Shown here piece by piece: positions 28,658 through 32,319 of a DNA stretch of 64,000 nucleotides. The stretch's first letter is position 1; each line of letters begins with the position of its first letter. The stretch spans positions 24,265 through 88,264 of the forward strand of contig CAJVYC010000010.1 of NCBI GenBank assembly GCA_913009205.1, read 5' to 3'. This DNA is from an uncultured Fluviicola sp. GTDB lineage: Bacteria > Bacteroidota > Bacteroidia > Flavobacteriales_D > Crocinitomicaceae. Under the pieces are notes generated by a model. It did not search any database. It worked only from the letters and a program-made list of their open reading frames with translations, and was not told the DNA's origin. A program made the position numbers and the translations under genes.

Positions 28658-29023
28658 ATGAAGAAGATATATCATCTTAAAAGCTGCAGTACCAACGTTC
28701 GAATTTTAAAGGAAATCGGACCTGGACCAGAGGTAGAGCTACAGAACATCAAAGAAGAAAACATCGATGCGAAAACACTCGATTTTTTAAAGGAAAAGAT
28801 GGGATCTTACGAATCGTTATTTTCAAAAAAAGCAATGAAGTTTCGATCTTTAGGTCTTAATAAAATGGACCTGACCGAACCTGATTACCGCAAATATATG
28901 CTAGAGGAATATACGTTTTTGAAACGTCCGTTTATGATTAATGGAGATGCTGTTTTCATTGGGAATTCAAAAGATACTGTGGCAGAAGCCGTTGCATCAT
29001 TCAATATGGGCAGTTACTGCTAA
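28658..29023 (+). CDS. ArsC/Spx-family thioredoxin-fold protein
   Basis: A 121-residue protein of the arsenate reductase (ArsC)/Spx family. It starts MKKIYHLKSCSTNVRILKEIG, with a single cysteine at the position of the ArsC active-site cysteine, and ends with RPFMINGDAVFIGNSKDTV, matching the family's RPI-like strand. An ArsC reaction is not guaranteed: many such proteins in Bacteroidota are annotated only as 'arsenate reductase family'. There are no arsenic resistance genes nearby. The gene starts three bases after the preceding one. Confidence 0.75.
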   Translation: MKKIYHLKSCSTNVRILKEIGPGPEVELQNIKEENIDAKTLDFLKEKMGSYESLFSKKAMKFRSLGLNKMDLTEPDYRKYMLEEYTFLKRPFMINGDAVFIGNSKDTVAEAVASFNMGSYC

Positions 29024-29041: not shown

Positions 29042-29278
29042 ATGAAAAAAGTGTCAATTGGAGTAGTATTGATTGTTGGAATATTTGCCTTGGTAAATTG
29101 TAAAACAACAAAAGAAACAGTAAACCCTGAAATTAATTCAAGTGCAAATGTGGTGGTTGATTCTCTCGAATTGGCACGAAAAAATAAAGTAGACTCTATT
29201 TCTCAAATCAAAATGCCTTCGAATACGAAGCCTAAATCAGTTGTAAAGCCTAAAAAGGGTTCTAAAAAACAACTATAG
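29042..29278 (+). CDS. Small predicted lipoprotein
   Basis: A 78-residue protein with signal peptide and a lipobox-like end (VVLIVGIFALVNC, cysteine near residue 21). A short polar lysine/serine-rich mature part follows (KPKSVVKPKKGSKKQL). It is the last gene of the kynurenine run, 18 bases after the previous gene. Function unknown; likely anchored to a membrane and possibly a cell-envelope spacer. Confidence 0.55.
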   Translation: MKKVSIGVVLIVGIFALVNCKTTKETVNPEINSSANVVVDSLELARKNKVDSISQIKMPSNTKPKSVVKPKKGSKKQL

Positions 29279-29296
29279 CCAATATAGAGGTATAAT

Positions 29297-29850
29297 TTAC
29301 TTGCCGAACAAGGATTTAAAGAGCTCTTTCTTTTTGGGAAATTCAAGAGAAGGTATTAAGCTTTTGTCCAATTGCATGTTTTGATAGTGTCCTTTTTCTC
29401 ATGGATTCTGTTTAAAGAAAGCACCAATGACTTATCCTATATTATGTGCATGTTCTACACCATCGATAGGCACTTCCGGAGCCCGTAATTCCTGCCCAAG
29501 CGCCGACTTAGGAAGGGGCCCATCGAAAGTTGCCAAAAAGGTTGGATTCCAAGCCGAGGTTAGAGCCCTGCCATCCAGCAATTTTTGATCATGAATTAAA
29601 TAAAAGGTTAAGTCTTTAAAGAATGATGTTTTTTTAGTTCTTCTGAGACTTTAGGCCGACGAAGTGTCATTCGTTTAATTGCAATTTCTTTGTTCCATTC
29701 AATTCCAATAGTATTCGAAAAGTAAGCCAATGAGTCTGATAATTGTTCAAAGATTCCAAGTTGAATTGGCAGTTCATCAATCTATTTAGTCCATTAAATT
29801 AGTAGAGGGATTATGACTTCTTCCCAGAAATGTCTAACTTGATTAACTAA
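29297..29850 (-). pseudogene. Decayed gene of unrecognised family
   Basis: Not in the ORF track, yet this gap reads as one degraded protein on the minus strand. From 29850 it runs LVNQVRHFWEEVIIPLLI, two in-frame stops (TAA, TAG), IDELPIQLGIFEQLSDSLAY and IEWNKEIAIKRMTLRRPKVS. A frameshift near 29620 leads into FKDLTFYLIHDQKLLDGRAL, then WNPTFLATFDGPLPKSALG and VPIDGVEHAHNIG. A stop at 29432 and another soon after are followed, still in frame, by GHYQNMQLDKSLIP and KKKELFKSLFGK. That makes about 180 codons with four nonsense codons and one frameshift. The 5' end runs into the T9SS gene start. I do not recognise the family. Confidence 0.65.
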
Positions 29851-29862
29851 AGTAATGTCAAT

Positions 29863-32319
29863 ATGAAAAATTTTACTAATTATATGGTGGCGGTAATCGC
29901 AATTATCGGCTTTGGTTCCGCAGCAAACGCTCAATGTCCAGTAGGACAAATGGGAGTTACAGTAGATGTTGTTACCGATACTTGGGGATATGAAGCATAT
30001 TGGGAGGTTACCCCAACGGGAAGTGCCTGTGGAACAGGAACTATCGGTGCATTTGGGAACTTTGGCGTTGTTGGATGTTCAGGCGGCGGCTTACAGACAG
30101 CTGCAGGAACTGATCCTGGAGCCTATGCCAATAACACTACAATAACTGAAAATGTTGGCTGTTTAGATATTGGATCCTGTTTTGATATTCATTTCGTTGA
30201 TGATTATGGTGATGGTGGTACAACATTCCAAGTTTATCTTGATGGAGTTGCAACTGACTTTTTTACTGGAGCGGGTACAGGAAACGTATTTAATTTCTGT
30301 GTAACGGCTCCTGCGGCTTTTGATGCTGCAATTTCAAATCCAGATGATGAATATACATTGGTGCCTTTAACACAAGTTACAACATTGGGTTCAAATGGAT
30401 TGATCACAAATACTGGAAGTAGTGCAGTTACAGATGCAAACATGACTGTTAATGTATACAATGGATTAATGGCTAACGTATATACTGGAACAAGCAATAC
30501 TGTACCATCTATTTTAGTTGGAGCTTCTTCTCCAGTTGCAGCATTAGGATATACACCAACTTTAATTGATGTATACACTGTTGAGATGATTTCAAACATT
30601 GCTGAGTTAGACGGTGACATTACAAATGATACTGTTTATTCTACGTATGCAGTAACGGATAGTACATATGCCAGAGATAATGGCGTAATTACAGCCCTTT
30701 TAGGCCTTACTGGCTTCGGAAATACAGGAGTAATTGGTCAAAACTTTGATGTAGTTGCTATGGATACAATGACAACTGTTTCTTTCTTCATTGCTCCCGG
30801 AACAGCTGCATTAGGAGATAGCGTTAGTATTTCAATTTATGATGTTGTTGCAGGAACGCCAACAACTCCAATTGGAGGTTCTGATATTTACTTTCTTACA
30901 CCTGCAGATACAGTAGCTGGGGGAACGTTCTTAACATTACCTGTAACGAATCTTGCGTCTAATTCATTAATACTTGGTGCGGGCACTTATTATGCTGCAG
31001 TAAATGAATTTAGTACTATTGATAATATTGCAATTGCACTTACAGATGACTCATATACTCCGAACACAGCATGGATTTCTATTGATGGAGGTGCATTTAT
31101 TACAAGTGAGTCTGTTGGTTTCCCTGGAGCATATGTAATTCGTCCTAACTTCGGACCTTATGTTTGTTCTCCAACAGGTTCTACTGTATTGGATGCTGCT
31201 TGTAATACATATACTTGGGCACAAAACGGATCGACTTATACTGCATCAGGTATGTATAACGATACTTTAGTAAATGCAGAGGGATGTGATAGTATTGTAA
31301 CTCTTGATCTTACGATCAATGGACCAACAACTTCGACGCAAACAGAAGCTAGTTGTTCTGATTACGTTTGGATCGTTGATGGACAAACGTACATAATGAC
31401 TGGAATGTACACAGCCGTTATACCAAATGCTGCAGGTTGTGATAGTACGATTACTCTAGATCTTACAATTGGTATGCTTGACATTTCTACAACAGTGAAT
31501 GGTTCAACAATAACATCAAATGCTGGTGGTTCTGCTACCTATCAATGGGTGGATTGTGACAACGGTAATGCACCAATAGCAGGAGCAACGAACCAATCAT
31601 ACACTGCTACAGTAAGTGGAAATTACGCGGTAGTCATCGTTGATGGGACGTGTAACGCAGCATCGGTATGTGAGCCAGTATGTGTTGGAACAGCATCGAA
31701 TGCAACTGAAGCAGCATGTTTTTCTTATGTATGGGCTTTGGACGGAAATACGTACACTACAACAGGTCAATACACTGCGGTTCTTGCTAACGCAGCAGGA
31801 TGTGACAGTACAGTAACGTTGGACCTTACAATTAACACTGTTGACAATACAACTTCAGTTGCTGGAAATACTTTTACTGCGAACTTTGCTGGAGGGACTT
31901 ATTTGTGGATTGACTGTGTTACAAACAACACAATTGCTACTGAAACTAATCAGTCATTTACACCAACAACTCCCGGTGATTACGCTGTTATCGTTTCAGA
32001 TGGAACATGTTCAGATACGTCAGATTGTGTTACAAGTACAGTTGGATTGAATGAAAATACTCTTTCTAAAGGATTTGAGATTTTCCCTAATCCAACTAAA
32101 GGAGCTTTCACAATTGCAATTTCTGGAATTATAACAGATAAAGTAACAGTGATCATTACTGAAGCAAAGGGTAAAGTAATCATGACTCAAGACTTTACAA
32201 ATGTTTCTGAATCAATGGAACTTCCTGTTCATTTGAACAGTATGGAAGTTGGAGTTTATTTTGTAACTATTACAGCGAATGACTCTAAGTCAGTACAACG
32301 AATTGTTGTAACGAAATAG
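29863..32319 (+). CDS. Secreted T9SS type A protein with cysteine repeats
   Basis: An 818-residue secreted protein. The signal peptide ends FGSAANAQ. An N-terminal domain (residues 25-145) contains the metal-binding-like DDYGDGGTTFQVYLDG. A long beta-rich middle follows. Three repeats of about 48 residues then occur near 445, 497 and 620, each with one cysteine early and one in the AAGCDS core (SYVWALDGNTYTTTGQYTAV, NAAGCDSTVTLDLTI). Ig-like inserts (YQWVDCDNGNAPIAGATNQS) separate them. The C-terminal T9SS type A sorting domain (GFEIFPNPTKGAFTIAISG...GVYFVTITANDSKSVQRIVVTK) should direct export to the surface. Probably an adhesin or structural surface protein. A terminator follows at once. 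Confidence 0.85.
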   Translation: MKNFTNYMVAVIAIIGFGSAANAQCPVGQMGVTVDVVTDTWGYEAYWEVTPTGSACGTGTIGAFGNFGVVGCSGGGLQTAAGTDPGAYANNTTITENVGCLDIGSCFDIHFVDDYGDGGTTFQVYLDGVATDFFTGAGTGNVFNFCVTAPAAFDAAISNPDDEYTLVPLTQVTTLGSNGLITNTGSSAVTDANMTVNVYNGLMANVYTGTSNTVPSILVGASSPVAALGYTPTLIDVYTVEMISNIAELDGDITNDTVYSTYAVTDSTYARDNGVITALLGLTGFGNTGVIGQNFDVVAMDTMTTVSFFIAPGTAALGDSVSISIYDVVAGTPTTPIGGSDIYFLTPADTVAGGTFLTLPVTNLASNSLILGAGTYYAAVNEFSTIDNIAIALTDDSYTPNTAWISIDGGAFITSESVGFPGAYVIRPNFGPYVCSPTGSTVLDAACNTYTWAQNGSTYTASGMYNDTLVNAEGCDSIVTLDLTINGPTTSTQTEASCSDYVWIVDGQTYIMTGMYTAVIPNAAGCDSTITLDLTIGMLDISTTVNGSTITSNAGGSATYQWVDCDNGNAPIAGATNQSYTATVSGNYAVVIVDGTCNAASVCEPVCVGTASNATEAACFSYVWALDGNTYTTTGQYTAVLANAAGCDSTVTLDLTINTVDNTTSVAGNTFTANFAGGTYLWIDCVTNNTIATETNQSFTPTTPGDYAVIVSDGTCSDTSDCVTSTVGLNENTLSKGFEIFPNPTKGAFTIAISGIITDKVTVIITEAKGKVIMTQDFTNVSESMELPVHLNSMEVGVYFVTITANDSKSVQRIVVTK

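Follow-up and report, generated by a model that had tools for sequence, protein, structure and literature searches.

Between an open reading frame (ORF) that ends at position 29278 and another that starts at 29863, the 64-kb stretch of Fluviicola DNA that we analysed (the window) contains a gap, 29279-29862, consisting mostly of broken minus-strand coding sequence, which raises the question of which gene once stood there and what its decay tells about the genes that surround it. The original prediction had described a 180-codon pseudogene of an unrecognised family. The relic alone indeed matched no Pfam model, and an NCBIfam search returned nothing useful. When block B of the relic (Table 1), with its stops written as X, was used as a query against 60 relatives, the best unbroken match was found in a congener, G003 (63% identical), with weaker unbroken matches in G021 and G029. 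The G003 ortholog is a 364-aa ORF located between the same divergent gene for a T9SS cargo protein and the same ArsC-like gene, confirming the expectation that related Flavobacteriales would keep intact homologues at this locus, with both flanking genes shared. This protein matches the Sulfotransfer_2 family of Pfam (PF03567; E=3.4e-11, 44.2 bits, for a curated cut-off of 22), and so do the copies in G021 and G029 (E=3.0e-10 and 2.5e-9; 41.1 and 38.1 bits; cut-off 22); the G003 protein has IPKTGGTT as a 5'-PSB-like loop and LRHPVDR...S as a 3'-PB-like stretch for PAPS. Its Pfam domain spans residues 5-205, leaving outside a C-terminal extension of ~150 aa (~206-364). The two peptides that had been quoted as strongly protein-like, WNPTFLATFDGPLPKSALG and VPIDGVEHAHNIG, come from this extension, which is why the relic alone has no Pfam match: the gene itself belongs to a recognised family, but the quoted segments do lie outside its Pfam domain. 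A reading of LATFDGP as the mark of a class III adenylate cyclase was dropped after the intact ortholog had been read.

Homologues, on whose existence the original prediction depended, turned up at 177 candidate loci in a genome scan, of which 80 were kept; about 40 of these relatives are intact, and they come mostly from marine Bacteroidota. The 39 near-full-length copies align end to end and share an invariant PAPS loop and K172-R173, R67 and S75 that are invariant or nearly so, and other invariant residues; nearly every position of I5-T15 (IFIHIPKTGGT) is invariant among them. The PAPS-binding motifs are thus kept in these relatives and missing from the window copy, in which the N-terminal ~137 codons are deleted, so that this copy is a pseudogene and not an active PF03567 member. 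The subfamily resembles the carbohydrate sulfotransferases of PF03567 in its shared PAPS motifs and in the scores of its intact orthologs above the cut-off, but differs by the extension past the Pfam domain. For the G003 protein, whose structure was predicted with a pLDDT of 91.8, the best match in the PDB is a heparan sulfate 6-O-sulfotransferase (5t03), both by sequence profile (E=4e-6) and by fold search (E=5.8e-4, prob 1.00, with a modest TM of 0.37 over the whole query), which agrees with a P-loop-like sulfotransferase fold; the identity to this best solved relative is 15%.

Aligned to the G003 ortholog, the relic keeps ~43% of a ~364-codon coding sequence, that is ~158 codons in two blocks rather than a gene of 180 codons, and its start codon and PAPS-binding motifs are gone. 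The lower bound of 29297 had been placed correctly, since the terminal stop codon of the relic (TAA) occupies 29299-29297, while the coding remains end at ~29778 instead of reaching 29850; the broken frame accordingly accounts for most of the gap, with the exception of the intergenic part beyond 29778, and not for nearly all of it. Relative to G003, the start is lost in a ~455-bp deletion that also covers ~48 bp of upstream DNA and the first ~137 codons, where both PAPS-binding motifs lie. Block A shows 85% DNA identity to L003:1131-1292, including a 9-bp gap that corresponds to an in-frame deletion, and block B 73% identity to L003:1489-1800. The frame is shifted between the blocks, as had been noticed, but this shift is the scar of a larger event, a net 190-bp deletion in which 196 bp gave way to 6 bp, as seen in the alignment to G003. 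Only two nonsense codons interrupt the surviving frame, both in block B (TAA at 29434-29432 and TGA at 29398-29396); the remaining ones of the four that had been counted belong either to intergenic sequence or, next to the scar, to an incorrect frame. Compared with G003, the damage adds up to two large deletions, one 9-bp deletion and two nonsense codons, and the deletion junctions are clean.

The intergenic DNA next to the relic abuts the deletion that took the sulfotransferase start and aligns, at 73% identity and with small gaps, to the DNA that precedes the T9SS gene in G003. The likely promoter region of this gene had been located inside the relic; its upstream region does belong to the same gap, but it lies beside the relic and not within it. 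There, a weak, degenerate -7-like element, TAACTTG, is found at 29835-29841 (G003 counterpart in the alignment: TAATTTTG), and we infer a possible promoter element of the T9SS gene, which we do not claim as its promoter.

Table 1. Features of the relic and of its surroundings (positions in the window; L003 is the G003 locus)
Feature	Position	Strand	Basis or description
ArsC-family (thioredoxin-fold) protein, synteny anchor	28658..29023	+	PF03960, E=1.1e-9
Small lipoprotein-like ORF, 78 aa	29042..29278	+	Between ArsC-like gene and relic
Probable relic of a Sulfotransfer_2 (PF03567) gene	29297..29778	-	Alignment to same-locus ortholog L003:724-1818; Pfam match of ortholog; profile scores versus shuffles
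Relic block B	29297..29623	-	~108 codons, corresponding to G003 codons ~256-364; FFKDLTFYLIHDQKLLDG...FKSLFGK
Internal deletion scar	29624..29629	-	L003:1293-1488 (196 bp) reduced to 6 bp; net 190 bp lost
Relic block A	29630..29778	-	~50 codons, corresponding to G003 codons ~138-190; DELPIQLGIFEQLSDSLAYFSNTIGIEWNKEIAIKRMTLRRPK...VSEELKK
Intergenic DNA upstream of T9SS gene	29779..29862	.	Homologous to G003 L003:583-675
Intact T9SS-cargo gene, 818 aa, Por_Secre_tail	29863..32319	+	PF18962, E=2.1e-11

With a profile of the family made from 38 relatives, G003 being left out, blocks A and B reached 63.2 and 51.7 bits, while the best of 400 shuffled controls reached 5.6 bits and the rest of the 64-kb window at most 4.6 bits. 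The organism's own genome (G000, a 2.8-Mb draft in 37 contigs, 99.2% complete) gave no match in a PF03567 search, and six of the 34 genomes of the genus did. With an intact ortholog in the same neighbourhood of a relative and no further copy found in its own genome, the relic is a unitary pseudogene whose enzyme family is known, and is ordinary in itself. Judged from the sequence, we consider that 29297-29778 (minus strand) most probably represents a recently dead sulfotransferase gene, with a probability of about 0.93 for its identity and its decay. It is very improbable that the breaks are sequencing or assembly errors in a gene that is intact in the living organism: the sequence was judged from a single 37-contig draft assembly, but deletions of ~455 bp, net 190 bp and 9 bp with clean junctions, together with two nonsense codons, go beyond point errors, and APS kinase, an enzyme of the donor pathway, is missing from the genome too. 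That the gap consists of normal intergenic or regulatory sequence, with a frame that looks protein-like by chance, as the lack of a Pfam match for the relic alone could have suggested, is refuted by the profile scores (63.2 and 51.7 bits versus at most 5.6 in shuffles) and by the collinearity with the intact G003 gene of this locus, both of which uphold the minus-strand pseudogene first proposed.

The sequence differences also bear on the age of this sulfotransferase relic. Counted by codon position, the relic differs from G003 by 4/0/10 (block A) and 7/5/13 (start of block B); between the window and G003, the corresponding counts are 15/6/48 and 33/15/120 in two intact neighbour genes. The third-position excess in the relic indicates that most of the divergence arose under selection, so that the gene appears to have died recently and to have been under selection until then. 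In a phylogenetic tree, the relic groups with G003 (99/94) and next with the other-genus copies L052 and L053. Since the order T9SS - sulfotransferase - ArsC is kept in L053, which belongs to another genus, this arrangement is probably older than the split of the two genera.

PAPS is the sulfate donor of sulfotransferases, and APS kinase is needed to make it. An APS kinase gene (PF01583) was detected in 22 of the 34 genomes of the genus, among them five of the six that carry PF03567, and none was found in the 99.2% complete genome of the organism itself, which therefore probably makes no PAPS. In the sixth carrier, G003, APS kinase was not found either, in an assembly that is only 79% complete and split into 800 contigs. 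Without PAPS, a sulfotransferase would be useless and would be expected to decay; we infer that the loss of PAPS synthesis was a cause or a companion of the decay of the sulfotransferase gene, in either order.

What remains at the locus is its set of neighbours. The ArsC-like anchor gene is present in 32 of the 34 congeners. The lipoprotein-like ORF is missing in G003; G010, G004 and G007 each have a counterpart at the corresponding position, 70-79 aa long. Small lipoproteins are also found beside an intact sulfotransferase in two other loci (L065 and L067). The T9SS gene is the conserved divergent neighbour of the sulfotransferase and, being intact, is probably the orphaned partner of the dead enzyme. 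Its product starts with a domain that we call WGYE (residues 25-149), predicted to be beta-rich (pLDDT 87), for which no Pfam model matched and a fold search gave no significant match. In G010, G004 and G007 (L023, L024 and L033), which lack the enzyme, the body of the T9SS protein is homologous and its N-terminus is different, as in an N-terminal domain swap; the swapped N-terminus is of an EDF...PAGW type that looks cleaved-adhesin-like by eye. In another congener, G014, a 30-aa stretch directly after the ArsC-like gene (L016 1862-1951) shares 90% identity with the C-terminus of the T9SS protein of the window; it seems to be what is left of the T9SS gene, in which case the locus would have eroded there too.

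Among the intact relatives, the product of a direct neighbour of the sulfotransferase gene ends in a T9SS sorting domain in 24 of 41 loci, the two genes being divergent, convergent or in tandem, and T9SS genes make up 35 of the 141 ORFs at positions +-1 and +-2, compared with 2 of the 81 ORFs at least three genes away. The genomes carry 12 to 143 T9SS genes, mostly 70 to 140; with the T9SS share estimated at ~4% of genes, one of the two neighbours would be a T9SS gene in ~8% of cases. Once loci that share other neighbours or that have similar copies were pooled into 15 locus groups, a rough grouping that does not stand in for a phylogenetic test, the adjacency was found in at least one member of 10 groups (p about 2e-8 against the ~8% expected, and 1.5e-5 if 16% were expected); this "any member" counting favours large groups, and a majority rule leaves 9/15. 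The adjacency between the sulfotransferase and T9SS genes is thus above background. In the T9SS partners, the signal peptide is often followed directly by a D-x-[WY]-G domain, which belongs to one or the other of two types. The partner N-terminal domain was found in 157 of the 399 genomes of the order and the enzyme profile in 17, which rules out that the WGYE domain is confined to sulfotransferase carriers, as three congeners had hinted. Because this partner domain is common without the enzyme, a dedicated enzyme-substrate pair made of the sulfotransferase and its T9SS cargo is still hypothetical, even if the adjacency itself recurs in independent groups.

Other genomic contexts were also seen. 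In four Bacteroidota loci, the long gene is accompanied by a short Sulfotransfer_2 gene (~260 aa) with an adjoining Cupin_8/JmjC gene, and this three-gene set recurs at positions +1 and +2 in L069, L075 and L078 and at -1 and -2 in L068. The gammaproteobacterial relatives L086, L088 and L092 are found with Trp_halogenase genes, and L086 and L092 also with SapC and Cupin_8 genes, which makes a surface-modification set possible; some gammaproteobacterial copies adjoin what, by eye, look like genes for the use of amino sugars. As far as we know, the gammaproteobacterial carriers would be expected to have no T9SS. A literature search on sets of Trp_halogenase, SapC and cupin genes found no paper. 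Taken together, the Cupin_8 and gammaproteobacterial contexts point to the modification of surface structures, without singling out one substrate.

What, then, would the intact enzyme do? It may use PAPS to sulfate an acceptor destined for the cell surface, the most likely candidates being a glycan of T9SS cargo and a sugar in a surface polysaccharide. Such a prediction follows from the repeated adjacency to T9SS-cargo genes, which suggests that the enzyme decorates the cell surface, and from the nearest solved structure, a heparan sulfate 6-O-sulfotransferase; a surface acceptor of one kind or another thus seems likely. Several points go against this predicted function: the TM of 0.37 is modest, G003 keeps the gene with no APS kinase seen in its 79% complete genome, many genomes have the partner domain without the enzyme, and T9SS neighbours are missing beside several intact copies. 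In a narrower version, which we regard as doubtful, the subfamily would be dedicated to modifying surface proteins exported by the T9SS, or the glycans attached to them; it would be inherited as a pair with its cargo and lost when PAPS synthesis is given up, and the window would show the cargo orphaned by the death of the enzyme.

Its strongest competitor, to which we give slightly less than an even chance, is that intact sulfotransferases act on capsule, LPS or exopolysaccharide and that they adjoin T9SS genes with no functional tie, simply as both are found in regions rich in surface genes. The closest solved structures are indeed carbohydrate sulfotransferases, several intact copies lack a T9SS gene beside them, copies from gammaproteobacteria stand with Trp_halogenase, SapC and Cupin_8 genes, and the partner domain is common without the enzyme. 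However, regions rich in surface genes would not readily account for the concentration of T9SS genes at the four nearest positions (35/141 versus 2/81 farther out), nor for an adjacency that recurs in several orientations and in distinct locus groups.

A direct sulfation of tyrosine in the partner is improbable. According to this possibility, the enzyme would be a tyrosine sulfotransferase acting on the D-x-[WY]-G domain of its partner, in the manner of RaxST of Xanthomonas, which sulfates a tyrosine of the RaxX peptide, itself associated with type I secretion genes (PMC6637879, PMC4216712). What the two cases share is a bacterial sulfotransferase gene with a link to genes for a secreted substrate and for the secretion system that exports it, and the partner domains here come right after the signal peptide, with aromatic motifs flanked by acidic residues such as DDYGDG and NDSWGDG. 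However, the neighbour here is a large T9SS cargo, and of the two enzymes only RaxST has a known substrate and a tyrosine specificity. In addition, the aligned motif residue is Trp as often as Tyr, so that no conserved acceptor tyrosine was found, the partner domain is widespread without the enzyme, and both sequence and fold indicate carbohydrate sulfotransferases.

Returning to a glycan acceptor at the cell surface, Bacteroidota have a general protein O-glycosylation system, through which surface and secreted proteins carry glycans (PMC10897501, PMC8729774), and these protein glycans could be acceptors for the sulfotransferase described here. No sulfated glycan is named in two glycosylation papers (PMC8698959, PMC10897501) that were searched for sulfate terms, and a literature search on T9SS-linked sulfotransferases found no paper on them, only one unrelated review. 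The pseudogene itself being ordinary, what deserves to be followed is the link between its intact relatives and T9SS genes: it offers the testable idea that T9SS surface proteins or their glycans may be modified by sulfation, and the window provides a small natural experiment, in which the T9SS gene is still intact in a strain without the sulfotransferase and, apparently, without PAPS synthesis.
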